Source: Ramlibacter sp. | GTDB lineage: Bacteria; Pseudomonadota; Gammaproteobacteria; Burkholderiales; Burkholderiaceae_C | DNA length: 35,787 nucleotides | Direction: 5' to 3' | Assembly (NCBI RefSeq): GCF_028292805.1 | Contig: NZ_JAQGLS010000292.1 | Coordinates: 1 to 35,787, forward strand | In this document: one piece after another, positions 1,510 through 33,693 of the stretch | How the letters are laid out: each line of letters starts with the position of its first letter | Numbering within the stretch: position 1 is the first letter of the stretch | Translations under genes and position numbers: made by a program | Notes under the pieces: model-generated | The model's input: only the letters and a program-made list of their open reading frames with translations | The model's database searches: none | Told to the model about the DNA's origin: nothing

Positions 1510-1881
1510 TCAGCGCCGAAACAGCGGCTGCGTGCCGGCAGCGTCGCCCTGGTAGAACGACGGGAAGCGGGCGAACTGGCGCTCGGCGTCGGCCGGGTCC
1601 TTGCCTTCCTTCAACACCGCGCTGGAAAAGCCCGTGCGGTGCATCTGTACCAGCTGGTCGATGCCGACGTCGCCGGTGGCGCGGATGTCGCCTTCGAAGC
1701 CGCGCCGCTGGCGCAGCAGGCGGGCCTGGCTGAAGGCGCGGCCGTCGGTGAACTTGGGAAACTGCAGCTCGATGCGGTCTACTCCGTCCAGCGGCACGGC
1801 CAGCGCGTCGGCGTCGTTCGCCAGCACCAGCACGTTCACGTCGGGCTCGGCCGGCGTTCCATGGGCGATCAGGCGGATCAT
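1510..1881 (-). CDS. DUF934 protein, sulfite-reductase companion
   Basis: A 123-residue protein (MIRLIAHGTPAEPDVNVLVL...) of the DUF934 family. Genes of this family are almost always found directly after a CysI-type sulfite reductase in proteobacteria; their biochemical role is not established. Visible family features are the block ELQFPKFTDGRAFSQARLLR followed by a conserved GDVGIDQL segment. There is no signal peptide or membrane segment. The ATG at 1881 overlaps the cysI stop as ATGA, and the stop lies two bases before the cysH start, so the gene sits mid-operon. An accessory role in assembly or activity of sulfite reductase is inferred from this position only. Confidence 0.9.
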   Translation of the reverse strand: MIRLIAHGTPAEPDVNVLVLANDADALAVPLDGVDRIELQFPKFTDGRAFSQARLLRQRRGFEGDIRATGDVGIDQLVQMHRTGFSSAVLKEGKDPADAERQFARFPSFYQGDAAGTQPLFRR

Positions 1882-3704
1882 GCTGCCTCCTTCTGGACGA
1901 AACGGGCGCTGTTGGCAGCGGCCTTGAACGGGTCCATGCCCACGCGGCGCAGGGTGGCGATGAAGGTTTCGGCGCGGCCGTCGGCGGCCGGCTGGCGCAG
2001 GCGGCGGTAGGCGTCGAGCACGGCTTCGATCACCACCGGCACTTCGGCGGCGGAGAACGAGGGGCCGACCACCTTGCCGGGCAGGGCCGGCCCCGACAGG
2101 TCGGTGCCGTCGGCGCCGCCCAGGGTCACCTGGTACCACTCCTTGCCGTCCTTGTCGACGCCCAGGATGCCGATATGGCCGGCATGGTGGTGGCCGCAGG
2201 AGTTGATGCAGCCGGAGATGTTCAGGCGGATGTCGCCCAAGTCGAACTCTTCGTCCAGGTCCTGGAAGCGCTGGGTGATGGCCTCGGCGATCGGCAGCGA
2301 ACGGGCGTTCGCCAGCGAGCAGAAGTCGCCGCCGGGGCAGGCGATCATGTCGGTCAGCAGGCCGATGTTGGGGCGCGCGAAGCCGGCCTTGCGGGCGGCC
2401 GCGAACAGCTCGGGCAGGTCTTGGGCGTGGACCCAGGGCAGCAGCAGGTTCTGTTCGTGCGTCAGGCGCGCTTCGCCGGCGGAAAAGCGGTCGGCCAGCT
2501 CGGCCGCCGTCTCCATCTGCTCGGCGGTGGCGTCGCCGGGGGCCTGCCCCAGGCGCTTGAACGACAGCGTCACGATGCGCAGCGCCGGGTCGCGGTGCGA
2601 GCGCACGTTGCGCTGCAGCCAGCGGTCGTATGCGGTGTCGGCTTCGGCGCCGGCGCGCACGATCTCGTGCAGCTGCGCCTCGGCGCCCTTGCGCAGCGTC
2701 GGCACCAGGGTGGGGCTGACGAAGCAGGCCGCCACGCGGTCGTACTCGGCCTGGGTGATGGTGTGCGGGCCGCCGTCGAGTTCGACGATCTGGCGGAATT
2801 CCTCTTCCACCTTGTCGATGTAGCGCTGGCCTTCGGCCTTGACCAGGATCTTGATGCGGGCCTTCCACACGTTGTCGCGGCGGCCGTACTCGTTGTAGAC
2901 GCGGATGCAGGCTTCGACGTAATTCAGCAGCTGGTGCCAGGGCAGGAACTCGCGCACCACGGTGCCGATGATGGGCGTGCGGCCCATGCCGCCGCCCACC
3001 TGAACCCGAAAGCCAAGGGCGCCGGCGCCGTCGCGCACCAGCTGCAGGCCGATGTCGTACCAGCCCAGGGCGGCGCGGTCTTCGGCGGCGCCGTTCAGGG
3101 CGACCTTGAACTTGCGCGGCAGGAAGGCGAACTCCGGATGCAGCGTGCTCCACTGGCGCAGGATCTCGGCGAACGGGCGCGGGTCGGCGACCTCGTCGGC
3201 GGCGATGCCGGCCAGCTCCTCGGTGGTGATGTTGCGGATGGTGTTGCCGCTGGTCTGGATGCCGTGCATGTTCACGGACGCCAGCAGGTCCATCACGTCG
3301 GCGCTCCTGGCCAGCGGGATCCAGTTGTACTGGACGTTGGTGCGGGTGGTGAAGTGGCCGTAGCCGGCCGTCAGCACGGTGGCCACCGGGGCGCCGCCGG
3401 GCACCGGCACTTCGCCCAGGGCGGACTGCTTGACCTGCGCTTCGCTCAGCAGGGCGGCGTCGGGACGGTCGTAGTCGCGGGCGATCTTGGCCAGCGCGCG
3501 CAGCTGAGCGCTGGAAATCTCGCCGTAGGGCACGGCCACGCGCAGCATCGGCGCATAGCGCTGGATGTACCAGCCGTTCTGCAGCCGCAGCGGGCGGAAT
3601 TCCTCTTCGGTGAGCTTGCCGGCCTGCCAGCGCTCGAGCTGGTCGCGATACTGTTCGGCGCGGGCGCGCACGAATTGCCGGTCGAAATCTGTGTAGCGGT
3701 ACAT
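1878..3704 (-). CDS. cysI: Sulfite reductase hemoprotein (nitrite/sulfite reductase family)
   Basis: Six-electron reduction of sulfite to sulfide, the last step before cysteine synthesis. The 608-residue protein has the two duplicated ferredoxin-like/siroheme halves of the family. The siroheme-[4Fe-4S] ligands are visible as Cys456-x5-Cys462 (ACPGGDFCSL) and Cys499-x3-Cys503 (SGCINSCGHHH). The N-terminal half carries the TRTNVQYNWI and TSGNTIRNIT blocks. No flavoprotein subunit (CysJ) gene is adjacent, so the electron donor may be ferredoxin or a separately encoded reductase; this is inference. It is the first gene of the cys operon; the start at ATG 3704 follows a roughly 220-bp divergent promoter region. 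A nitrite reductase function cannot be excluded from motifs alone, but the cys neighbours argue for sulfite. Confidence 0.94.
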   Translation of the reverse strand: MYRYTDFDRQFVRARAEQYRDQLERWQAGKLTEEEFRPLRLQNGWYIQRYAPMLRVAVPYGEISSAQLRALAKIARDYDRPDAALLSEAQVKQSALGEVPVPGGAPVATVLTAGYGHFTTRTNVQYNWIPLARSADVMDLLASVNMHGIQTSGNTIRNITTEELAGIAADEVADPRPFAEILRQWSTLHPEFAFLPRKFKVALNGAAEDRAALGWYDIGLQLVRDGAGALGFRVQVGGGMGRTPIIGTVVREFLPWHQLLNYVEACIRVYNEYGRRDNVWKARIKILVKAEGQRYIDKVEEEFRQIVELDGGPHTITQAEYDRVAACFVSPTLVPTLRKGAEAQLHEIVRAGAEADTAYDRWLQRNVRSHRDPALRIVTLSFKRLGQAPGDATAEQMETAAELADRFSAGEARLTHEQNLLLPWVHAQDLPELFAAARKAGFARPNIGLLTDMIACPGGDFCSLANARSLPIAEAITQRFQDLDEEFDLGDIRLNISGCINSCGHHHAGHIGILGVDKDGKEWYQVTLGGADGTDLSGPALPGKVVGPSFSAAEVPVVIEAVLDAYRRLRQPAADGRAETFIATLRRVGMDPFKAAANSARFVQKEAA

Positions 3705-3923: not shown

Positions 3924-4646
3924 ATGGCGCAACGGGTGTTCATCAAGGTGGTGGGGTTCACGGACCAGGAGCGCCACGCCGTCAACACCGTGTTTCGCCT
4001 GTCCGAACAGTGCCGCACGATGTACCAGCTGTGGACCCCGCACGCGCCCGAGGCCGCCGGGATGGCCTTGCTGGACGGGCAAAGCTACGAAGCCAGGGTC
4101 GAGGCCGAGCTGTCGTTCAACGGCGGCCTCAAGCTGCTGTGGGTGGGGCCGGAAGCGCCGGCCCGGGTCTGGCGCAGCTTCGACCGGCCGATCGCCTGGC
4201 CGGCCATCATCGAGGCCATGGACTCCGTGTTCGTCGGCGATCCGCTGGACTTCGACGTCGAGGTGGGCGAGCCCACCACCGGCATGTCGCTCAAGCAGGC
4301 GCTGATCGTCTGCGCGGACCGCGACGAGCGCCTCTACCTGCGCGCGCGCCTGTCGCTGGCGCACCTGACCCAGGCCGACGAAGCCGAAAGCGGCACCCAG
4401 GCGGTGGAACTGGCGCGCGGCAAGCAGTACGACGTGGCGCTGGTCGGCTTCGGCCTGCCCGACATGGACGCCTGGTCGGTGCTGCGCGAGCTGCGCGACG
4501 GCAAGCGCCCCATCCCGCACGTGGCGGTCACCAAGTGCCGGCGCTCCCTGCCGGAACACGTGCGGGCCTGGCTCGGCGGCGCCGAGGCGCTGCTCGATGC
4601 GCCACCGCACCCGGCGCGGCTGAATGCCTGGTTGAAGCGGATCTAG
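3924..4646 (+). CDS. Protein with degenerate C-terminal receiver domain
   Basis: A 240-residue cytoplasmic protein with a good ribosome-binding site (GGCAGGAGGG) ahead of ATG 3924. Residues 124-240 read as a response-regulator receiver: strand ALIVCADRDER with acidic residues, then DVALVGFGLPDMDAW, then HVAVT. The phospho-acceptor Asp is replaced by Gly175 and the conserved Lys near the end is missing (EALLDAPP), so classical phosphorylation should not be possible. Residues 1-120 (VFIKVVGFTDQERHAVNTVF...) match no domain I recognise. The gene is divergent from cysI and its stop overlaps the mnmC stop tail-to-tail by 3-4 bp. A protein-protein interaction or non-phosphorylated signalling role is possible but not shown by sequence. 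Confidence 0.8.
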   Translation: MAQRVFIKVVGFTDQERHAVNTVFRLSEQCRTMYQLWTPHAPEAAGMALLDGQSYEARVEAELSFNGGLKLLWVGPEAPARVWRSFDRPIAWPAIIEAMDSVFVGDPLDFDVEVGEPTTGMSLKQALIVCADRDERLYLRARLSLAHLTQADEAESGTQAVELARGKQYDVALVGFGLPDMDAWSVLRELRDGKRPIPHVAVTKCRRSLPEHVRAWLGGAEALLDAPPHPARLNAWLKRI

Positions 4647-6292
4647 GCGCTTTTCACGCGCCGCGCATCCAGCGCCTGCGCCAGCCGCGCCTGCAGCGGC
4701 CACGGCTCGCCGTGCAAGCGGGCCGCGATCCATTCCCCACACAGCGCCGCGAAGGTCAGGCCGCGCGAACCCATTGCGGTGCTGACCCACAGACCGGGCT
4801 CGATCTCGCCGGCCAGAGGACGGCGGTCACTGGACGCCCAGCGCACATTGCTCCAGGCCTGCACCGCGCCGCCAGCAAACTGCGGCGCCAGCGCGGCGGC
4901 GGCCGTGGGCAGCAACTCGCGCAGGCGTTCCAGGTTGGCGGCATGGTCCTGCGCACGCGGCGACGGATCGGCGTCGGCACGGCCGTAGGTCGAGCCGGTC
5001 AGCCAGGCCCGGCCGGCAGCCAGCGGCAGGTCGGGCAGGAAGTGGCCGTTGCCGTTGACGGGGTGGCCAGGCAAGATGTCGCCCGCCTGGCGCAAGCCCC
5101 AGGACACCTGGCCGCGCACCGGATGGGTCGTGACGCGGCCGGCCAGCAAGCCGGCGCTGGCGCCGGCGGCGGCCACCACCACCAGCGGGGCGCGGCCCAG
5201 CGCGGCGCCGCCAGCGTCGCGCACCATCCAGCCATCGCCATCGCGCACCACGTCGTGCACCTTGCAATTGCCCTGGAACACGATGCCTGGCCCGGCCAGC
5301 CAGGCCCGCACCAGCGCCGCCGGCCGGACCCAGCCGGCCGTGGCGTGCCACCAGGCGGCATGCTGCAGTGGGAGCCCCGCCGCTGCTTTCTGCGCGGCGT
5401 CGGCATCGCGGCTCCACGCGTCCAGGCTCGGTCCCAGCGCCGGCAGCGGTCGTTGGTCGTTCCCGCGCTGCTCCAGCACGCCGCTCGGCGCCCAGTCCAC
5501 GCCTTGCTCCAGCAACCGGGCGCATTCCTGCCAGGTGATGCGAACCCCGCTGCGCGATAGCCGCGACAGCAGGTTGTCGTCGGGCGACTGGTGTGGCGCC
5601 ATCAAGCCCCCCGGCAGCGAGGAGGCGCCGGCGGCCGGCTCGGCGGCGACGTCCAGCACCCGCACCGACCAGCCCCGCCGCGCCAGGCTGGCGGCCACGG
5701 CTGCGCCAGCCAGGCCGGCACCGACCACGATGCAGTCAGAGGGGCAGGGCGGTGAAGCTTGCGGCAGCCCCTTGACCTGCCAGGCCGGCGCGTAGCGCGC
5801 CTGCAAGCCGTCCTGCGCGATGCTGTCCACCACGAAGCCCAGGCTGGCCAACTCGCGCGGCGTCACCTGCACGGGGCCTTCGCAGGCCAGCTGCGAGCCG
5901 GGTCGGCACAGGCGCGGCAGGGCTTTCAGCGTGGCGGGGGCGAGCGCATCGAACAGCAGTACATCGGCGCGGAAGGCCTGCTCCTTGAGCATGGCGGCGA
6001 GCTCGCCCACGCACAAGGTGAGCAGCACCCGGCCATCCTCGAAGGAGAAGCGGTGAAAGCCCGGCGTGAGGCCGCTCCAGGGCGGGACCGGGCCGGCAAC
6101 CGTGATTGCCACGTAATGCAGCAACGCGGGACGCTGCGGGTCGTCGCGCCAGGCCTGCAACGTCGCGGGAAAGCGCAGGCCCCCGGCCAAGCCCGCCTGC
6201 AGCACGCGCCACTGGCCGGCTTGCGCCCAGGCAGCGCGCGGGTCCACCGAATCAGGTGGCGGGAGGCACGTAGCCGGCCGCGGCGTCGGCAC
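4643..6292 (-). CDS. mnmC: MnmC: tRNA cmnm5s2U34 FAD oxidoreductase with decayed methyltransferase domain
   Basis: In E. coli, MnmC is bifunctional: the C-terminal FAD domain removes carboxymethyl from cmnm5(s2)U34 in tRNA and the N-terminal domain methylates the product. Here the C-terminal half is intact, with the dinucleotide fold [20 protein letters not shown] near residues 188-207, [12 protein letters not shown], and the terminal [20 protein letters not shown] block. The N-terminal half is degenerate. Where family members have a [EL]xGFGxGxNF SAM-binding loop, this one has [10 protein letters not shown] (residues 32-41); about 30 residues after it are missing, and the DGFAPAKNP catalytic block is reduced to FDALAPA. 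Total length is 549 against 668 in E. coli. The start is uncertain: GTG 6292 overlaps yggX by 41 bp, while GTG 6247 begins four bases after the yggX stop. Confidence 0.88.
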
Positions 6293-6524: not shown

Positions 6525-6556
6525 GGGCGTCTCCTGGGAATCTGGTGGGGATGTGC

Positions 6557-6643: not shown

Positions 6644-7666
6644 ATGAGCCAACGCCGCGACTTTATCAAGATTCCCATGGCCGCCGCCCTGGCGGCGGCC
6701 ATGACCTTCGCGGCGCTGCCCGCAGCGGCGCAGACGGTGCAGCTGCTCAACGTCTCCTACGACCCGACGCGCGAGCTGTACGTGGAGTTGAACCAGGCCT
6801 TCGCCAGGTACTGGAAGGCCAAGACCGGCCAGGACGTGAGCATCCAGCAGTCGCACGGCGGCTCGGGCAAGCAGGCCCGCGCCATCATCGACGGCCTCGA
6901 TGCCGACGTCGCCACGCTGGCGCTGGCCGGCGACACCGATGCGCTGGTCAGGCACGGCGGCTGGCTCAAGGCCGACTGGCAAAAGAAGCTGCCGCACAAC
7001 GCCTCGCCCTACACCTCGACCATCGTGCTGGTGGTGCGCCAAGGCAATCCCAGGGGCATCAAGGACTGGGACGACCTGGCCAAGCCCGGCATCAGCGTGA
7101 TCACGCCCAACCCGAAAACGTCGGGCGGGGCCCGCTGGAACTACCTGGCGGCCTGGGAGTTCGCCAAACGCAAGTACGGCGGCGACGCGCAAGCCAAGGA
7201 CTTCGTCGGCAAGCTGTACGCCAACGTGCCCGTGCTCGACACCGGCGCCCGCGGCTCGTCCATCACTTTCGCCCAGCGCAACCAGGGCGACGTGTTCATC
7301 TCCTGGGAGAACGAAGCCTACCTGCTGGAAAAGGAATTCGGCAGCAAGGTCGACGTGCTCTACCCCTCGCTCAGCATCCTGGCCGAGCCGGCCGTTGCCG
7401 TGGTCGACAAGGTGGTCGACCGCAAGGGCACCCGCGCCGTGGCCGAGGAGTACCTCAAGTACCTCTACACGGAAGAAGGCCAGGACATCGCCGGCAAGCA
7501 CTTCTACCGCCCGGCGATTTCGCAGAAGGCGCAGGCCAAGTACGCCAGGCGGTTCCCCAAGCTCAACCTGTTCACCATCGACCAGGCTTTCGGCGGCTGG
7601 GATCAGGCGGCCAAGGTCCACTTCGCCGACGGCGGCAGCTTCGACCAGATCTACACCCGCAAGTGA
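6644..7666 (+). CDS. sbp: Sulfate/thiosulfate ABC transporter substrate-binding protein
   Basis: Periplasmic receptor that delivers sulfate (possibly thiosulfate) to a CysTWA-type transporter. The 340-residue protein has a twin-arginine export signal (SQRRDFIK followed by a hydrophobic stretch ending LPAAAQ, cleavage near residue 30), so Tat export is predicted. Mature-protein family blocks are [13 protein letters not shown] near the N-terminus, [30 protein letters not shown] and ISWENEAYL. The closest family split is Sbp versus CysP; the blocks fit both and I use sbp loosely. No permease or ATPase gene follows, so the membrane components must be encoded elsewhere. The start is ATG 6644 with a weak upstream GAGG. 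Regulation probably goes through the palindrome at 6557-6574. Confidence 0.93.
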
Positions 7667-24855: not shown

Positions 24856-25561
24856 CTAAACGCCGAGGTACTGCTCGAGCAGCTGCGGCCGCGATCGCAG
24901 TTCGGCAGAGCTGCCCTGGAACACCACTTCGCCCTTGACCAGGATCACGTTGCGGTTGGTCACCTGCGTCACATGCTTCCAGTTCTTGTCGACGATCACG
25001 CTGGAGATGCCGCTGCCCGCGATCAGGCCGCAGATCCGCCAGATCTCGCGCGCGATCAGCGGGGCCAGCCCCTCGGTCGCCTCGTCGAGGATGAGCACGT
25101 CCGGGTTGGTCATCAGGGCGCGGCCGATGGTCAGCATCTGCTGCTCGCCGCCCGACAGTTGCTGGCCGCCGTGGCCCAGCCGTTCCTGCAGCCGCGGAAA
25201 AGTCTCCAGCACCCGCTCGTAGGTCCAGTCGCGCTGACCCTTGGTGCCGGGTCGCGCCGCCATCACCAGGTTTTCTTTGACGCTCAGGTTGCCGAAGATG
25301 CCGCGGCCTTCGGGCACATAGGCAACGCCAAGCTGCGCTACTTCATAGGGCGGCCGCCCGACCATGTCGCGGCCTTTGACCCGGACGCTGCCCCCGCGTG
25401 GCCGCACCAGGCCGACCAGGGTCTTGAGCAGGGTGCTCTTGCCCATGCCGTTGCGCCCCATCAGGCCGATGGTCTCGCCGCGCGCCACGTCGAAGTCGAC
25501 GCCGCGCAGGATGTGGCTGGCACCGTAGTACGTCTGCAGCGCGCGCGCTTCGATCAGGGCC

Positions 25562-25569
<8 letters not shown>
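24856..25569 (-). CDS. livF: ABC transporter ATP-binding protein, LivF type
   Basis: One of two ATPases of a branched-chain-amino-acid-type (HAAT) ABC importer. The 237-residue protein has Walker A GRNGMGKSTLLKTLVG, the LivF-typical VPEGRGIFGNLSVKENL, signature LSGGEQQMLTIGRAL and Walker B VLILDEATEGLAP. The start ATG 25569 overlaps the livG stop by 8 bp and matches the family N-terminus. Because benzoate-CoA ligase and boxR lie upstream in the same locus, the substrate is more likely benzoate or a related aromatic acid than an amino acid; this is inference from context. It is the last gene of the transporter operon. Confidence 0.94.
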
Positions 25570-26393
<824 letters not shown>

Positions 26394-26401
<8 letters not shown>

Positions 26402-27398
26402 GCGGCGTCTCCTTGCGGCGCAGCACGCGTTCCAGCATGCCGAGCAAACCACGCGGGGCGAAGGTGACGATCAGCACGATGAACAGGCCCGTCCACAGCT
26501 GCCAGTGCTTGCCGGCGTTGAAGCTGCCGATGGTGGGCAGGTCCTTGGCTTCGTGCAGCAGCATCTCGAAGGCGAAGGCGCCGACGATGGCGCCGGCGAA
26601 GTTGCCCATGCCGCCCAGGATCAGCATCATGATGGCGTGCGCGCTCATGTGGAACCCCATCAGCTCGGGGTTGATGAAGCCCGTCTGCGCGCCCCACAGG
26701 TAGCCGGCCAGCCCGGCCAGCGCGCCGGCTAGCGTGAAGGCGGCCAGCTTGTAGCCGAAGGTGCCAAAGCCCATCGCCCGCATGCGGTGCTCGTTGACGC
26801 GAATGCCGGCCAGGGCGCGGCCGAACGGGCTGAACAACAGCCGTCGCAGGAAGCAGTACACCAGCAGCATCACGGCCAGCGTGAAGTAGTAGAAGACGCG
26901 CTTGTCCTCCAGGTCGAACAGGCCGGCGTTCGGCTTGAAGTTGATGTACAGGCCGTCGGAGCCGCCCAGCGCCTTGTTGTCGAAGAACAGGAAGAACACC
27001 ATCTGCGCGAACGCCATGGTGACCATGATGAAGTAGATGCCATGGGTGCGGACCACGAAGAAGCCGATCACCAGCGCGGCCAGCCCGGAGCCGGCGACCG
27101 CCAGCGGCAAGGTCCACCACAGCGACACCGCCGCGTCCGGTGGCGTGACGAAGGCCAGCGCGTAGCCGGCCAGGCCGAAGTAGGCGGCATGGCCCAGCGA
27201 CACCAGGCCGGTGACGCCTTGGAGCAGGTCCAGGCTCATGGCGAAGATCGCCAGGATCATCATGCGCGCCACCATGGAAGCGTAAAACTCGGTGGCGACG
27301 AAGGGGAACACCAGTAGCGCCACCAGCGCCAGCGCCAGCCCGACCTGAAGCCCGCGCGGCAAGGTCTCCAGCCGGGAGGCGGTGGAGGTGGAGCTCAT
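26394..27398 (-). CDS. livM: Branched-chain-type ABC transporter permease, LivM type
   Basis: One of two inner-membrane permeases of the HAAT importer. The 334-residue protein has about nine hydrophobic segments and family blocks SLDLLQGVTGLVSLGHAAYFGLAGYA, RTHGIYFIMVTMAFAQM, SPFGRALAGIRVNEHRMRAMG (the EAA-like cytoplasmic loop contacting the ATPase) and LILGGMGNFAGAIVGAF. The start ATG 27398 (MSSTSTASRLETLPRG) matches the usual N-terminal cytoplasmic stretch. The stop overlaps livG. An 88-bp gap separates it from livH, which holds no gene. Confidence 0.94.
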
Positions 27399-27486
27399 GC
27401 GCCGCCGCCGGGCCGGCCCAAGTCGGCGAAGGCCCGCTCGGGGAACAGCGCGGTACACGAAACGACAAGCGTGGGGGCTACATTCG

Positions 27487-28350
27487 TCATTGCTTGAACA
27501 GTCCTTCCGGCTTCCACAGGAGAACGGCCGCCATCAGCATGTACACCAGCATGCCGGCCACCTGCGGCAGCAGCACCTTGCCGAAGGTGTCGACCAGGCC
27601 GACCAGCAAGGCGGCGATGAGGGCGCCGCGGACCGAGCCGATGCCGCCGATCACCACCACCACGAAGCACATGATCAGCACCTGCGAGCCCATGTTGGGG
27701 TAGACGCTGGAGATCGGCGAGGCGATCATGCCGGCGATGGTCGCCAGGCCCACGCCGAGGGCGAACACCACGGCGTGGATCAGCTTGATGTTGACGCCCA
27801 GCGACTCGGTCATGTCGCGGTTGAAGGCGCCGGCGCGAATCTTCATGCCCAGCCGGGTTTTCGAGATCAGCAGGTACAGGCCGAGGGCCAGCACGATGCA
27901 CACGCCCGACATGAACAGCCGGTAGACCGGGTAGGAGAGGTTGTCGGTCAAGGGGATGGAAGCCGAGAGCAGGGCGGGGATGGCCACGCCGTGGACATCG
28001 TCGCCCCACAGGATGGAGCGCATTTCCTCGAACATGTAGATCAGGCCGAAGGTGAGCAGCACCTGGTCGAGGTGGTCACGCTGGTAGAAATGGCGAAACA
28101 GCACGCGTTCCAGCACCAGTCCGAAGATGACCGACAGCACGGTGCCGAGCAGGATGGCCAGCACCAGGCTGCCGATGGTGCTGGAGAGCCACCACGCCAG
28201 GTAGGCGCCCAGCATGTAGAAGCTGCCGTGGGCGAGGTTGACCACGCCCATGATGCCGAAGATCAACGTCAGGCCGGCGGCCAGCATGAACAACAGCAGC
28301 CCGTACTGGACGCTGTTGAGGAGCTGGATGAGCAAGTTGGGGAGGTCCAT
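27487..28350 (-). CDS. livH: Branched-chain-type ABC transporter permease, LivH type
   Basis: Partner permease of LivM. The 287-residue, highly hydrophobic protein starts MDLPNLLIQLLNSVQYGLLLFMLAAGLTLIFGIMGVVNLAHG, the hallmark LivH N-terminus, and has the cytoplasmic loop TRLGMKIRAGAFNRDMTESLGVN plus VVVIGGIGSVRGALIAALLVG. Length is typical (about 290). No clear ribosome-binding site lies before ATG 28350; the mRNA just upstream folds into strong hairpins (28360-28389, 28405-28429), which may lower permease translation relative to the binding protein. Confidence 0.94.
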   Translation of the reverse strand: MDLPNLLIQLLNSVQYGLLLFMLAAGLTLIFGIMGVVNLAHGSFYMLGAYLAWWLSSTIGSLVLAILLGTVLSVIFGLVLERVLFRHFYQRDHLDQVLLTFGLIYMFEEMRSILWGDDVHGVAIPALLSASIPLTDNLSYPVYRLFMSGVCIVLALGLYLLISKTRLGMKIRAGAFNRDMTESLGVNIKLIHAVVFALGVGLATIAGMIASPISSVYPNMGSQVLIMCFVVVVIGGIGSVRGALIAALLVGLVDTFGKVLLPQVAGMLVYMLMAAVLLWKPEGLFKQ

Positions 28351-28359
28351 GGAGGCAGG

Positions 28360-28389
28360 GAGGGACTAGGGGCCAGGGCCTAGTCCCTC
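28360..28389 (-). terminator. 11-bp perfect inverted repeat before livH
   Basis: Arms GAGGGACTAGG (28360-28370) and CCTAGTCCCTC (28379-28389) with an 8-nt loop. It lies between livK and livH on the transcript and lacks a T-tract. It is likely an mRNA-processing or attenuation hairpin rather than a full terminator, since the permease genes follow. Confidence 0.55.
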
Positions 28390-28404
28390 GTCCCTAACCG
28401 CTGT

Positions 28405-28429
28405 GGGTTGACGCTTGCCGCGTCAACCC
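28405..28429 (-). terminator. 10-bp perfect hairpin at the livK stop codon
   Basis: Arms GGGTTGACGC (28405-28414) and GCGTCAACCC (28420-28429) with a 5-nt loop; the livK stop TGA lies inside one arm. No T-tract follows. Together with the neighbouring hairpin it could protect the livK message from 3' decay, a known way to make binding protein in excess of permease. Confidence 0.55.
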
Positions 28430-29610
28430 AGCTTGCACCCCGCGCCCGAATCGGCCAGCGCCTTGGCGGCGATGCCGACCACCTTGTTGTCGCCCTTTTC
28501 CACGCGGCGCAGGTAGATGTCCTGCACCGGGTTGTGCGACTTGCTCATCGTCCACTTGCCGCGCGGGCTGTCGATGGTTTGCGTCTCCAGCGACTTGTAG
28601 AGAGCCTGCTTGTTGCCGATGTCGCCCTTGACGGCGGCGATGCCCTGCGCCAGCAGCAGACCGGTGTCGTAGCCCTGCACCGCGTACACGTCCGGCTGCA
28701 TCCGGAACTCCTTGGCGAAAGCCAGCCGGAACTGGTTGTTGCGGGGCGTGTCCAGCGAATCGGCATAGTGCATCGTGGTCATGATGCCTTCGGCGGCCGG
28801 GCCGGCGGCCGTCAGCACGCCTTCGGTCAGGAAGCCGGACCCCCACAGCGGGATCTTGTCCTTCAGGCCGGCCGCGGCGTAGTCGCGGATGAACTTGGCG
28901 GCGCCGCCGCCAGCGAAGAAGCAGGCCACTGCGTCGGGGCGCAGCGAGGCGATCTCGGTCAGCAGCGCCTGGAACTCCACGTTGGGGAAGGGCAGGCCCA
29001 GTTCCTTGATGATGGTGCCGCCGGCCGCGGTGTAGCTTTCCTTGAAGCCTTCGAAGGCTTCGTCGCCGGCCGCGTACTTCCAGGTGATCCAGACCGTCTT
29101 CTTCAAGCCCTTGTCCATCATCGGCTTGCCCAGCGCGCGCGTGGGCTGGCTGTTGCTGAACGAGGTGCGGAACACGTTGGGCGCGCACAGCGAGCGGGTG
29201 GCTGCATGGACGCCGGCGTTGGGGATCAGGTTGAGCACGCCGCTGTCACGGGCCACGCGCTGGATGCCCATCTGCACGCCGGAGTGGACAGTGCCGATCA
29301 GCACGTCGACCTTGTCGCGCTGGACCAGACGGTTGGCGTTCTCGACGCCCTTGGACGGCTCCGATTCGTCGTCGACCTTGAACCACTCGATCTCGCGGCC
29401 GCCCAGCTTGCCGCCCTTTTCGTTGATCGCCATGCGCACGCCGTTCTCGATCGCCACGCCCAGCTGCGCGAAGGTGCCGGTGTACGGCAGCATGAAACCG
29501 ACGCGGACCTTGTTCGACTGGGCGCGCGCGATCTGGGGCAGCAACAGGCCGGTCGAGGCGGCGCCGACGATGGCGGCACCGCGGGAGAGGACGAGGCGGC
29601 GAGTGGTCAT
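28423..29610 (-). CDS. livK: ABC transporter substrate-binding protein, LivK/benzoate type
   Basis: Periplasmic receptor of the HAAT importer. The 395-residue precursor starts MTTRRLVLSRGAAIVGAASTGLLLPQIARAQ, a signal peptide with an RR pair that could use Tat, cleaved near ARA-Q. The mature part has KVRVGFMLPYTGTFAQLGVAIENGVRMA and the type-I periplasmic-binding fold (VDVLIGTVHSGVQMGIQRVARDSGVLNLIPNA; YDTGLLLAQGIAAVKGD). AGGAG precedes ATG 29610. The location directly downstream of benzoate-CoA ligase and the boxR unit suggests binding of benzoate or a related aromatic acid; this is inference, not motif evidence. Confidence 0.93.
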   Translation of the reverse strand: MTTRRLVLSRGAAIVGAASTGLLLPQIARAQSNKVRVGFMLPYTGTFAQLGVAIENGVRMAINEKGGKLGGREIEWFKVDDESEPSKGVENANRLVQRDKVDVLIGTVHSGVQMGIQRVARDSGVLNLIPNAGVHAATRSLCAPNVFRTSFSNSQPTRALGKPMMDKGLKKTVWITWKYAAGDEAFEGFKESYTAAGGTIIKELGLPFPNVEFQALLTEIASLRPDAVACFFAGGGAAKFIRDYAAAGLKDKIPLWGSGFLTEGVLTAAGPAAEGIMTTMHYADSLDTPRNNQFRLAFAKEFRMQPDVYAVQGYDTGLLLAQGIAAVKGDIGNKQALYKSLETQTIDSPRGKWTMSKSHNPVQDIYLRRVEKGDNKVVGIAAKALADSGAGCKLG

Positions 29611-29713: not shown

Positions 29714-31288
29714 TTACTGGCCGGCGTCCGCGCGCAGGCGAAAGCGCTGGATCTTGCCGGTGGCCGTCTTGGGCAGCTCGGGCACGAAGGCGATCCAGCG
29801 CGGGTACTTGTAGGGCGCCAGCAGCGTCTTGACGTGCGCCTGCAGGTCGGCGGCGCTGGCTTCCTGGCCTGCCTTCAGCACCACGTATGCCTTCGGCTTG
29901 ACCAGGCCGTCGCTGTCGGCCACGCCGATCACTGCTGCTTCAAGGATGGCCGAGTGCGTCATGAGGCAGGCCTCCACCTCGAACGGCGAGACGTAGATGC
30001 CGCCCACCTTGAGCATGTCGTCGCTGCGCCCGCCGTAGGTGTAGTAGCCGTCGGCGTCGCGGGTGTACTTGTCGCCGCTGCGCGTCCACGCGCCGGAGAA
30101 GGTCGCCTTGGTCTTGGCGCGGTTGTTCCAGTACATGATCGCCGAGGTCGGCCCGCTGACCTGCAGCTCGCCGATCTCGCCGGGCCCGCACTCGCTGCCG
30201 TCGTCGCCGACGATGCGCAACTCGTAACCCGGCACCGGCTGGCCGGTGGTGCCGTAGCGCACCTTGCCGGGGCGGTTCGACAGGAAGATGTGCAGCATCT
30301 CGGTGGAGCCGATGCCGTCCAGGATCTCGGTGCCGAATTCGGCGGTCCAGCGCTTGCCGATGTCGGCGGGCAAGGCTTCGCCGGCGCTGGTGCACACGCG
30401 CAGGTTCAGCTCGCTTTTCTGCGGCCGCGCCGGGTCGGCCAGCAAGGCCGCATAGAGCGTCGGCACGCCGTAGAAGATGGTGGGCCGGTACTTCCTGAGC
30501 ACGCCGAACACATCGGCCGGGGTCGGTCGCGCCGGCAGCAGCACCGCGGTGGCGCCAACGCTCATGGGGAAGGTCAGGCTGTTGCCCAGGCCGTAAGCGA
30601 AGAACAGCTTGGCGGCGGAATAGACGACGTCGTCTTGGCGGAGGCCCAGCACCGCGCGGCCATACAGTTCGGCCGTCTGCACCAGGTGCGAGTGCAGGTG
30701 CACCGTGCCCTTGGGCGCGCCGGTGGAACCGCTGGAATAGAGCCAGAAGCAGGCGTCGTCGCTGCAGGTGCCCGCCACCTGCTGGTCGGGCGCGCCGGAT
30801 GCGACCAGGCTCGCCACCGAGTTGTCGCCGGCGGCGCCGGCCACGAAGATCTGCGCCAGCGTGGAGATCGTGCCGACCAGCGGCTCGAAGGTGGGCAGCA
30901 AGGGCTTGGAGACGAACAGTGCCTGCGCGCGTGAATCGCGCAGCATGTAGTCGAAGTCCCTGGTCGTGAGCAGCGTGTTGGCCGCCACCGGCACCACGCC
31001 GGCCAGGATGCAGCCGAGGAAGACAACGGGCCATTCCGGTGTGTCCAGCATGGCAATCACCACGCGCGCCTCGGGGCCGATGCCCCGCTGGCGCAATGCG
31101 TTGGCGAAGCGATGCGAGTGCTCGGCGAGTTCGCCGTAAGTCAGTTGCGCGCCGCTGGCCGCATCGACGAAGGCGACCTTGCCCGGGCGCGCCGCATTGC
31201 GTTGCAGCAGGTCGTGGGCAGCGTTGTAGTCGCGCGGGATCTCGATCCGCGGCGGGGTGGAGCTGTGGTCGGCGTGGCTCATGTGCAT
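29714..31288 (-). CDS. bclA: Benzoate-CoA ligase
   Basis: Activates benzoate to benzoyl-CoA with ATP, the first step of the box pathway. The 524-residue adenylate-forming enzyme has the AMP-binding loop WLYSSGSTGAPKGTVHLH (near 182-199), AYGLGNSLTFP, the benzoate-CoA ligase block RPTIFYGVPTLYAALL, DGIGSTEMLHIFLSNRPG, GDKYTRDADGYYTYGGRSDDMLK and the C-terminal catalytic Lys in LPKTATGKIQRFRLR. The ATG 31288 has AGGAG nine bases upstream; ATG 31282 is possible. The length is typical (about 520-530). Related ligases act on 2-fluoro- or hydroxybenzoates, but the block spacing and boxR neighbour make benzoate the best call. Confidence 0.93.
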   Translation of the reverse strand: MHMSHADHSSTPPRIEIPRDYNAAHDLLQRNAARPGKVAFVDAASGAQLTYGELAEHSHRFANALRQRGIGPEARVVIAMLDTPEWPVVFLGCILAGVVPVAANTLLTTRDFDYMLRDSRAQALFVSKPLLPTFEPLVGTISTLAQIFVAGAAGDNSVASLVASGAPDQQVAGTCSDDACFWLYSSGSTGAPKGTVHLHSHLVQTAELYGRAVLGLRQDDVVYSAAKLFFAYGLGNSLTFPMSVGATAVLLPARPTPADVFGVLRKYRPTIFYGVPTLYAALLADPARPQKSELNLRVCTSAGEALPADIGKRWTAEFGTEILDGIGSTEMLHIFLSNRPGKVRYGTTGQPVPGYELRIVGDDGSECGPGEIGELQVSGPTSAIMYWNNRAKTKATFSGAWTRSGDKYTRDADGYYTYGGRSDDMLKVGGIYVSPFEVEACLMTHSAILEAAVIGVADSDGLVKPKAYVVLKAGQEASAADLQAHVKTLLAPYKYPRWIAFVPELPKTATGKIQRFRLRADAGQ

Positions 31289-31372: not shown

Positions 31373-31852
31373 CTAAGCGCTGGCCGCCTGCTTCTGCATC
31401 ACCGGGATCGCCTCGGCCAGCCACTCGCGGCACCACGCGGCACCGAGTTCCTCGGCCAGGGTGCCGGAACTGGCGTCGTGACACCACACCTGGCCGATGC
31501 GCTGCGCGCCCAGGCCTTGCAGGCGCTGGTCGAACTTCTGGCCGCCAAAACAGAAGGTCTGCAGGTAGGTGCGGTCACCCAGTGCCACCACGCCGTACTT
31601 CACGTGGCCCAGGAAGCGCGGCTGCGCGTCGAGCGATTCGTACAGGGCGCGGGCGTTGTCGGGCACGTCGCCCGAGCCGTAGGTCGAGGTGCAGATGAGA
31701 TAAAGTGCATCGTCATCGAACACGGCCGGGTCCAGCCCGTCCATCATCACGATCTCGATGTCGTCGACGAGGTCGGCACAGTCCATCTGGATGGCTTGGG
31801 CGACATAGTCGGCCGTGCTGGTCATGGTGCCGACGAGGATCTTGAGCTTCAT
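31373..31852 (-). CDS. Flavodoxin-domain (MioC-like) protein
   Basis: A 159-residue single flavodoxin domain: MKLKILVGTMTSTADYVAQAI (FMN phosphate loop TMTSTAD), LYLICTSTYGSGDVPDNARALYESLDA (first FMN-stacking loop), YGVVALGDRTYLQTFCFGGQKFDQRL (second loop). These are the MioC/flavodoxin signatures, so the product should be a small FMN electron carrier. The ATG 31852 is chosen from the family N-terminus; the ribosome-binding site is weak. It is the first gene on this side of the boxR divergent promoter, ahead of benzoate-CoA ligase. An electron-transfer role in aerobic benzoyl-CoA oxidation is plausible from position but not known. The gene could equally serve another reductase. Confidence 0.88.
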   Translation of the reverse strand: MKLKILVGTMTSTADYVAQAIQMDCADLVDDIEIVMMDGLDPAVFDDDALYLICTSTYGSGDVPDNARALYESLDAQPRFLGHVKYGVVALGDRTYLQTFCFGGQKFDQRLQGLGAQRIGQVWCHDASSGTLAEELGAAWCREWLAEAIPVMQKQAASA

Positions 31853-31902
31853 GCGGGGTCCGATCTTGGCTGCATGGATCTGGTCCACATGCAGCAAACT
31901 GC

Positions 31903-31950
31903 TTGACAGGCGACTTGCAGGAAGTATATTGCAAACCTGCCTCAGCGCAA
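31903..31950. promoter_or_regulatory. Overlapping divergent promoters with TGCA repeats (boxR / flavodoxin-bclA)
   Basis: Plus strand: TTGACA (31903-31908), 16-bp spacer, TATATT (31925-31930), driving boxR. Minus strand: TTGCGC (31950-31945), 16-bp spacer, TATACT (31928-31923), driving the flavodoxin-ligase side. The two -10 boxes overlap. TGCA words lie at 31871, 31890, 31916 and 31930, with the inverted pair TTGCA-N10-TGCAA at 31915-31934 covering both -10 boxes. TGCA repeats are the known recognition words of the BoxR/BzdR family, so repression of both promoters by BoxR, relieved by benzoyl-CoA, is the inferred model. Confidence 0.68.
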
Positions 31951-31976
31951 GTCCTGATTCTTCCAGAAGGCACTTC

Positions 31977-32903
31977 ATGCAAGCGATGACCGACATCGAA
32001 TCCCGCGCCACCCTGGTCGACCTGGGTGCCCGCGTGCGGGCCTGGCGCGCCCGCCGCGGCATGACGCGCAAGCAGCTGGCGGCCGACTCCGGCTTGTCCG
32101 AGCGCTTCCTGGCCGACGTCGAGGGCGGCAAGGGCAACGTCTCCATCAATTCGCTGGAAGCCGCGGCCCGCGCTTTGAACATCACCTTGCTCGACCTGCT
32201 GCAGGACGCGCCACGGCCCGCGCTGGCCCGGGTGCACAACCTGCTGGGGCGGCTCGAGGAAGGCCAGCTCGATCAGGCCTATGGCATGTTGGCCAGCACC
32301 TTTGGTTTGTCCGATGCGCACGGTCGCGAGCGGCGCATCGCGCTGGTGGGGCTGCGTGGCGCCGGCAAGACCACGCTGGGCGGGCAGCTGGCGGCCCAGC
32401 GCGGCGTGCCCTTCGTCGAGCTGGACCGCGAGATCGAGCGCGAAGCCGGCACCAGCATGAACGAGATCCTGCTGCTGCACGGTCAGGCGGGCTACCGCCG
32501 CTACGAGCGCCGCGCGCTGCTGCGCATCGCCGAGGAGCACGCGGGCGGCGTGGTGATGACCACCGGCGGCAGCATCGTGAGCGAACGCGAGACCTTCGAC
32601 CTGCTGCAGTCGCACTTCCATTGCGTGTGGGTCAAAGCCAGCCCCGAGGAGCACATGAGCCGGGTGGTGGCGCAGGGCGACATGCGCCCGTTCGACGCCG
32701 CCCGCGGCGAGACCGACGGCGAGCTCTCGCGCAGCGCCATGGGCGAGGCGCTGGACGACATCCGTCGCATCCTGGCCAGCCGCGAGGCCTTGTATGCACG
32801 CGCGGACTCGGTGGTGGACACGGCGGCGCGCAGCGTCAAGCAATCGCTGAAAGATCTCGAGCGGGCCGTGCCCGCGGCCAAGGACAAACTGGAGGCAGCA
32901 TGA
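31977..32903 (+). CDS. boxR: BoxR-type benzoyl-CoA-responsive repressor (XRE HTH + shikimate-kinase-like domain)
   Basis: A 308-residue regulator with an N-terminal XRE helix-turn-helix (residues ~15-75: VRAWRARRGMTRKQLAADSGLSERFLADVEGG) fused to a shikimate-kinase-like domain with P-loop GLRGAGKTTLG (Lys131), FVELDREIEREAG and ATTGG-like MTTGGSIVS. This HTH-kinase fusion is the BoxR/BzdR architecture; in studied members the kinase-like domain senses benzoyl-CoA and is not a functional shikimate kinase. AGAAGG precedes ATG 31977; ATG 31986 is an alternative. The stop overlaps the boxC ATG (ATGA), so boxR headed the catabolic operon. The protein looks intact although the genes it should control downstream are broken. 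Confidence 0.94.
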   Translation: MQAMTDIESRATLVDLGARVRAWRARRGMTRKQLAADSGLSERFLADVEGGKGNVSINSLEAAARALNITLLDLLQDAPRPALARVHNLLGRLEEGQLDQAYGMLASTFGLSDAHGRERRIALVGLRGAGKTTLGGQLAAQRGVPFVELDREIEREAGTSMNEILLLHGQAGYRRYERRALLRIAEEHAGGVVMTTGGSIVSERETFDLLQSHFHCVWVKASPEEHMSRVVAQGDMRPFDAARGETDGELSRSAMGEALDDIRRILASREALYARADSVVDTAARSVKQSLKDLERAVPAAKDKLEAA

Positions 32904-33458
32904 GGGCAATGCCCGAGCCCCTGCTGTTCAAGCCGACGCCGAGCGGCGAGGAGCGCGAGTTCGTGAGCTTCGCCACCCACCCGGCGCACTGCTGCCACTG
33001 GGCGCTGGACGTTCAGGGCGGCGTTGCCCGGCTGACGCTGGACATCGACGAGGACGGCGGCATCAAGCCGGGCTACAAGCTCAAGCTGAACAGCTAGGGG
33101 ATCGAGCTGACCCCGCTCAAGCCGGTCATCGACGAGCAGGTCGACCACGCCACGCGCATCGCCACCTTCACCGTGTCCGGCCCCAAGACCTGCATCGAAG
33201 CCACGCCGGCGGCGATCGTCGCCGCCGGCGCGAGCTGATGGCCGCTGCAGCTGGCGCGGGAGCTCGACGCCGCCATCCTGAACCTGCGCACCAACGAGCT
33301 GCAGATCGGCGTGTGGGTCTTGAAGACGCGCCGCGACGCCGACCTGGTGATGGCCTCCGACGCCGTGCTGGAGCAGCACAAGGACCACTGGCTGGTGGGC
33401 GAAACCACCGGCGCGCTGCGCCGCACGCTGGCCCGCCTGGCCTTCCTGAACTGGTTAG
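32900..33458 (+). pseudogene. boxC: Remnant of boxC (benzoyl-CoA-dihydrodiol lyase)
   Basis: ATG 32900 overlaps the boxR stop. The N-terminal 65 codons are recognisable BoxC (HCCHWALDVQGGVARL, LDIDEDGGIKPGYKLKLNS) and end at an in-frame TAG (33095-33097) where intact family members continue SYDLGVDIEL. Past the stop, in the same frame, sequence jumps to a later region of BoxC (GIELTPL, ATRIATFTVSGP, IVAAGAS), hits a second stop TGA (33236-33238) in place of the expected Trp of AWWPLQ, then continues WPLQLARELDAAILNLRTNE and GETTGALRRTLARL. Intact BoxC has about 550 residues; roughly 200 are deleted in the middle and the C-terminal part is absent. The enzyme would convert 2,3-epoxybenzoyl-CoA by hydrolytic ring opening, but this copy cannot. 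Confidence 0.85.
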
Positions 33459-33533
33459 ATGGCCGGCTGGATCGCCCGCCGACCGCGGCGTCAACGCCAA
33501 CGCGCGGTGGAGTACGAGTACGTGAAGCTCTGA
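33459..33533 (+). pseudogene. boxB: Terminal fragment of boxB (benzoyl-CoA 2,3-epoxidase subunit)
   Basis: The last ~24 codons of a boxB gene follow directly on the boxC remnant: AGWIA, then (after a frame change) DRGVNAN, then VEYEYVKL and TGA at 33531-33533. The family ends with a block of the type GWIAPP...GxNxxPxxFEYVKL, which these pieces match. At least two single-base frame changes lie inside the fragment. A deletion has evidently joined boxC to the end of boxB and removed nearly all of boxB. Identification rests on a short terminal match. Confidence 0.62.
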
Positions 33534-33543
33534 TGCGAGCGAT

Positions 33544-33569
33544 GCGGCCTCGTGCCGCTTCTTTCTTTT
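33544..33569 (+). terminator. Intrinsic terminator of the former box operon
   Basis: Hairpin GCGGC-CTCGT-GCCGC (33544-33558) followed by the T-rich tract TTCTTTCTTTT. It begins 10 bp after the boxB remnant stop, in the expected place for the end of the catabolic operon. Confidence 0.65.

Positions 33570-33616: not shown

Positions 33617-33693
<77 letters not shown>

Follow-up and report, generated by a model that had tools for sequence, protein, structure and literature searches.

In the genome of the soil bacterium Ramlibacter sp. analyzed here, the native (type I) boxC and boxB genes of the benzoyl-CoA (box) pathway have decayed, and the BoxR regulator, the benzoate-CoA ligase and the transporter encoded beside them have very probably been kept for a type II box operon located on another contig, C38. 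The window, namely the whole stretch of 35,787 nucleotides under analysis, corresponds to contig C298 (NZ_JAQGLS010000292.1) of assembly GCF_028292805.1, which comprises 3.83 Mb in 329 contigs and is estimated to be 95.2% complete and 2.39% contaminated.

Positions 32900-33533 of the window are a boxC-boxB pseudogene on the forward strand. The initial annotation had described this region as the first 65 codons of boxC and a later segment, with about 200 residues lost in between, a TAG at the junction, a TGA replacing a conserved Trp codon and a fusion to the last ~24 codons of boxB; all these features were recovered, and the lesions can be specified as follows. The first piece (32900..33097) retains 65 codons plus the TAG, and 32900-33094 matches positions 1-44 of the BoxC model TIGR03222 (E 1.3e-12, 47.3 bits). 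The TAG, at 33095-33097, was produced by the junction of an in-frame deletion of 576 bp (192 codons), as gauged on the relative locus L099 (L099 11120-11695); an additional in-frame deletion of 30 bp follows shortly after it, within the second piece (33098..33235; model positions 257-292, E 8.5e-4, 18.2 bits). The TGA lies at 33236-33238, where 4/4 aligned relatives have TGG, and precedes the third piece (33239..33442), whose match to positions 295-361 covers 33239-33454 (E 2.8e-25, 89.1 bits). Finally, a deletion of ~1.9 kb (1905 bp when gauged on L060 and 1925 bp on L099), with its junction at about 33443-33457, removed about 95% of boxB together with the boxC end, and fused boxC to the boxB tail (33443..33533); alignment with relatives identifies the last ~25 codons of boxB, which end at 33533 and carry -2/+2 indels.

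The scores of the three pieces compare with a TIGR03222 cut-off of 712.3 bits and two stops lie between them, so that no full-length BoxC is encoded; the remnant is a pseudogene of BoxC descent. A chance match to generic enoyl-CoA hydratases was considered and rejected, since, at E up to 1, none of the three pieces hits any NCBIfam model other than TIGR03222. The boxC part was aligned with four relatives (L045, L060, L099 and L102, the latter with frameshifts of its own) and the boxB tail with five (L024, L060, L064, L099 and L102). Locus L102/L186, from Ramlibacter terrae H242 (G049), has broken frames also in the neighboring livF, livH, ligase, boxR, boxC and boxB genes, which, together with a completeness estimate of 63%, suggests an error-prone assembly.

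Misassembly or base-call errors hiding a true locus with intact boxC and boxB are a very unlikely explanation of these lesions. The window does come from a fragmented, metagenome-type assembly of 329 contigs, and the relatives G014 and G049 show box-gene frameshifts that are possibly sequencing errors; however, at least five lesions of different kinds, including two in-frame deletions, are gathered in about 640 bp, unlike the outcome of a single misassembly. Moreover, the flanking genes are open and ordered as in relatives, the codons of the remnant have a raised dN that assembly would hardly produce, and a profile search of the contigs found no other type I boxC or boxB in the genome.

The genes surrounding the pseudogene are preserved, as initially annotated: BoxR and the ligase score above their family cut-offs and the transporter frames are open. 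boxR (31977..32903, forward strand, with a putative start codon) reaches 344.7 bits with NF006015 (cut-off 204); the match spans protein residues 53-355, and separate helix-turn-helix and shikimate kinase models also hit the protein, the latter corresponding to its shikimate-kinase-like C-terminal part. On the reverse strand are a flavodoxin of 159 aa (31373..31852; PF00258, E 1.4e-22), the benzoate-CoA ligase (29714..31288; TIGR02262, 781.4 bits, cut-off 375.25) and an ABC transporter of the branched-chain/aromatic type (24856..29610), whose orthologues are found in the type I loci of relatives. The latter comprises open frames for a substrate-binding protein (SBP, 28423-29610), livH (27487-28350), livM (26394-27458), livG (25562-26452) and livF (24856-25692); the livFGHM names were assigned by analogy, family confirmation (ABC_tran) being limited to 24859-25692. 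The flavodoxin is conserved across type I box loci; its best NCBIfam models, flavodoxin PRK08105 and MioC, are both below cut-off. Two further reverse-strand genes of the window, coding for a 608-aa nitrite/sulphite reductase-domain protein (1881-3704) and a 549-aa FAD-dependent oxidoreductase (4646-6292), have no evident tie to the box locus.

Downstream of the pseudogene a tRNA-Pro(tgg) gene is found (33617..33693, forward strand), which is a conserved neighbor of type I loci. It occurs downstream and on the same strand in 12/12 relative loci scanned, in 10 of them 3′ of boxB, while in L162 and L164, which are devoid of type I boxB, it follows the remaining genes, boxR or boxC; this common position indicates that the window contains the native type I locus. 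Among the loci compared, L102 is the closest for the transporter-ligase-boxR stretch, with 86.6% identity over 8.0 kb.

Selection was assessed by Nei-Gojobori counts against eight relatives, with SBP, livH and livM covered among the transporter genes. The dN/dS values of the three boxC pieces are 0.30, 0.43 and 0.44, versus 0.12, 0.46 and 0.23 among relatives; the middle piece, of 45 codons, is variable anyway and shows no rise. In the 65-codon remnant dN is 0.150 versus 0.050 among relatives, with similar dS (0.493 versus 0.431). The values of the retained genes closely follow those of relatives: 0.17 versus 0.17 for boxR (dN 0.093 versus 0.083), 0.23 versus 0.21 for the ligase (dN 0.104 versus 0.097), 0.15 versus 0.15 for SBP (dN 0.052 versus 0.053), 0.15 versus 0.13 for livH and 0.23 versus 0.22 for livM; for the flavodoxin they are 0.20 versus 0.17 (dN 0.119 versus 0.082, dS 0.585 versus 0.473). 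Thus, boxR, the ligase and the tested transporter genes are under ordinary selection, and the initial proposal of a locus caught during loss holds for boxC and boxB, but not for boxR, the ligase and these three transporter genes.

These data also bear on the possibility that the whole benzoate locus is dying, the ligase, the transporter and BoxR being intact only because the loss is recent and not because they serve C38. At the DNA level, about 86-92% identity to the nearest relative persists in the remnant pieces, indicating that the loss is not ancient; the dN of the flavodoxin is somewhat raised, and G018 and G031 have no type I ligase beside their other type I genes. Against this, dN/dS rises in 2/3 remnants and little or not at all in BoxR, the ligase, SBP, livH and livM, and profile searches found the BoxR and the benzoate-CoA ligase of the window to be the only ones above the respective cut-offs in the genome. 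A dying locus is accordingly judged unlikely.

A search of the genome for boxA, boxB and boxC, the check that the initial annotation had proposed, revealed one complete set, on the reverse strand of C38: boxC (type II) at C38:4831-6549, boxB (type II) at C38:3397-4821 and boxA at C38:2106-3383. Their products score 958.6, 880.9 and 724.3 bits with the BoxC, BoxB and BoxA models (cut-offs 712.3, 499.1 and 459.2) and contain no stops; the operon has no boxR of its own. At the DNA level, C38 boxC is 68% identical to the remnant over the main segment (301 columns) and 84% over another 56. In a BoxC tree of 79 rows, built with a quick method and with 19 Polaromonas type I rows omitted at random, the remnant groups with the type I rows and C38 BoxC falls in the type II part, where its partner is the BoxC of G058 (99*). 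Types were assigned to rows from their best matches, and the outgroup row L125, typed I, sits on the type II side. Given the main-segment identity and the different clade, the idea that the C38 set arose by recent duplication of the window's own copy was rejected.

C38 is probably not contamination, because its isc operon, in which family matches confirm fdx, hscA, iscS and iscR, and the window share the same best relative, R. terrae (G049/L102). The isc operon has one full-length match in the window's own genome among the matches listed; outside that genome the highest score belongs to G049 (87%), with identities of up to 88% in some partial matches of other genomes. It is thus highly improbable that C38 comes from another Ramlibacter, in which case the organism would have no intact box enzymes and benzoyl-CoA would be used otherwise, or the pathway would be lost. 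The estimate of 2.39% contamination would fit such an origin, as would the facts that the BoxC nearest to that of C38 belongs to G058 and that G049, the best relative of the window, has no type II set. The shared affinity of the isc operon and the window to G049 and the sole full-length match listed for the isc operon in the window's own genome argue against it, as do the close GC contents obtained when C38 and the window are compared (68.0% and 68.9%).

The preferred reading is, then, a division of the pathway between the two contigs. From their families, the transporter and ligase of the window would take up benzoate and convert it to benzoyl-CoA, which would feed the C38 enzymes, the BoxBA epoxidase first and then BoxC; the C38 set would provide the ring-opening dihydrolase and the epoxidase together with its reductase. 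The type I boxC and boxB may have become redundant and then decayed, whereas the regulator, ligase and transporter of the window would remain under selection because the C38 operon supplies the catalytic enzymes. The initial annotation had considered accumulation of benzoyl-CoA or its use by enzymes from elsewhere in the genome and, as to the history of the locus, repurposing after takeover by a second box copy as an alternative to ongoing loss. The complete C38 set, together with the location of the only BoxR and the only ligase in the window, supports use elsewhere following such a takeover; no finding calls for accumulation.

The regulatory side of this arrangement was approached through the BoxR sites, which, according to the available text of PMC6449761, are TGCA repeats, mostly spaced by 6 nt. 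The divergent promoter region of the window (31853..31976) contains four TGCA, at 31871, 31890, 31916 and 31930, and only degenerate sites: the one at 31890 sits in TGCA-N6-TGCT, and an exact TGCA-N6-TGCA is absent from the region. In 28 kb of C38, TGCA-N6-TGCA occurs exactly twice, at 6535 and at 6647, each time at the boxC start; the site at 6535-6548 extends over the initial codons of the longest open frame of boxC and is upstream of the BoxC model match. When the 520-bp region of C38 was shuffled 20,000 times under a first-order Markov model, the mean was 0.0135 sites and 1 shuffle reached the observed number. The C38 operon thus has, at its putative promoter, the TGCA repeats with 6-nt spacing that characterize the BoxR regulon.

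Similar sites were identified in other genomes. Five boxC II operons have no adjoining boxR II (G000, G022, G030, G046 and G058) and 4/5 carry exact sites, that of G022 having a site with a single mismatch; among operons with their own boxR II exact sites were found in 4/12, near boxR or boxC, specifically upstream of boxR II in G008 and G011 and near boxC in G003, G035 and G008 (the G051 operon is cut by a contig end). Stand-alone boxB-boxA pairs contain TGCA-N6-TGCA once each, shortly upstream of boxB, in 3/3 cases; these pairs, from G007 (L169), G008 (L172) and G038 (L165), gave no boxC hit in the fetched stretch. The DNA-binding regions of BoxR I and BoxR II are similar, not identical. As the C38 operon has BoxR-type palindromes at its start and no boxR of its own, we infer that the sole BoxR of the window may plausibly control it in trans; it would act as a repressor through the TGCA-N6-TGCA at the boxC start, and would probably repress both loci. 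This regulatory step is the weak one of the proposed arrangement: the differences between the BoxR I and BoxR II DNA-binding regions, the inexact site of G022, the degenerate sites of the window, the overlap of one C38 site with boxC codons and the exact sites in operons that have a boxR II all count against it.

Sixty genomes, including that of the window (G000), were searched for BoxR, BoxB and flavodoxin, and 59/60 (all but G099) for BoxC and BoxA; genomes were sorted by hand from the listed scores, with contig-end fragments assigned by bits per residue. BoxB II and BoxA are present in 20 genomes, 35 have type I only and five neither (G006, G010, G028, G048 and G056). Type I BoxR is retained in 16/20 genomes with BoxB II, and 6/16 of these have lost type I boxC and/or boxB: G000 (both, with remnants left), G003 and G022 (boxC), G018 (boxC and ligase), G030 (boxC, boxB and flavodoxin) and G038 (boxB, with a boxB-boxA pair elsewhere). 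A clean type I loss was seen in 0/35 type-I-only genomes, 30/35 having both boxC and boxB above cut-offs; of the other five, G014 and G049 have boxC frameshifts, in G001 and G044 boxC is confined to pieces at contig ends, and G099 is outside the BoxC search. With kinship ignored, Fisher p is 0.0004 for 6/16 versus 0/35, 0.0009 for 6/16 versus the 0/30 verified genomes, and 0.008 when the frameshifted G014 and G049 are scored as losses.

The six loss cases require at least five changes on a BoxR tree, a quick and poorly supported one of 85 rows (6/82 inner branches starred) with five rows disregarded because of contig ends or frameshifts. Decay may extend further in two other genomes, in which searches found no type I boxR, boxC or boxB: G051 (81% complete), where the flavodoxin, the ligase and the transporter genes of type I are kept, and G031, in which the type I flavodoxin and the start of SBP are followed by the contig end. 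Since G030 and G038 correspond to isolates, R. aurantiacus AW1 and R. rhizophilus, respectively, the pattern of loss is not restricted to metagenome assemblies, and the replacement of type I genes seems to recur in related species. A different arrangement is observed in L193 (G020, C22:107500-125500), where a second set of ligase and transporter genes, adjoining boxCBA II, has a boxR II-type gene on either side.

The distribution of BoxA raises a further point. boxA is absent from the native copy in the window, and C38 BoxA gave tblastn matches in 0/80 BoxR loci, many of which end at contig ends. Among the 59 genomes of the genus searched, BoxA is above cut-off in exactly the 20 genomes with BoxB II and in 0/34 of those with type I only, G001 having BoxA-like pieces below cut-off. 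A flavodoxin orthologue is present in 78/80 BoxR loci from Ramlibacter, Polaromonas, Caenimonas and kin, and in 47/48 genomes with BoxB I versus 4/7 box-positive genomes without it (p = 0.005), a co-occurrence that in part follows from the shared locus; in G030 flavodoxin, type I boxC and type I boxB are all absent. ORFs read by eye 3′ of type I boxB in L060, L038 and L078 resemble a chemoreceptor, PhoX and a TRAP-type permease, with no reductase evident. These data are only suggestive and make the flavodoxin a candidate for delivering electrons to a BoxB that works without BoxA. Tentatively, the type I locus might represent a BoxA-free box pathway, in which BoxB is fed electrons by the flavodoxin encoded next to the ligase, with the gain of the BoxA-bearing type II operon making type I BoxC and BoxB dispensable and repeatedly lost; this is conceivable rather than probable, and the flavodoxin kept in G000, G038, G051 and G031 despite no intact BoxB I speaks against a BoxA-free pathway. 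A BoxA-free type I locus, which may already be in print, poses the question of the reductant of its epoxidase.

As far as the available text of PMC6449761 and PMC10803450 goes, both two-copy box clusters and ligase-BoxR loci with box genes missing have already been described. The window resembles the BoxR-regulated clusters of Betaproteobacteria (Suvorova and Gelfand 2019, PMC6449761), in the parts of that work consulted, in that boxR and the box genes are divergent from the ligase and transporter genes and that TGCA-repeat sites are mainly 6 nt apart; it differs from them by its native boxC/boxB pseudogenes, by having no boxA there and by a second copy without its own boxR. In the accessible portions of PMC10803450, group IC_FM, which gathers benzoate-CoA ligases with an incomplete Box context and includes Ramlibacter and Polaromonas members, similarly keeps the ligase and BoxR while nearby box genes are missing, and the incomplete Box context of P. 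xenovorans LB400 is suggested to be complemented by another complete copy. That work, in the same portions, reports absence from the gene context, whereas remnants, lesions, selection and recurrence across the genus are measured here; a decay series within one genus and a selection contrast were not found in the accessible part of the open-licence literature.

Taken at the strength given above, the window illustrates a catabolic pathway rebuilt by parts: a divergent set of enzymes has replaced the original one, and the native genes for regulation, uptake and activation have stayed in place under selection. It also cautions that pathway capacity inferred from a single gene neighborhood is misleading. 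The genus as a whole offers a graded series, from loci that are intact to those with boxC lost, boxB lost, both lost and, at the end, the regulator not found either; through this series, the regulatory take-over of an acquired operon becomes testable.
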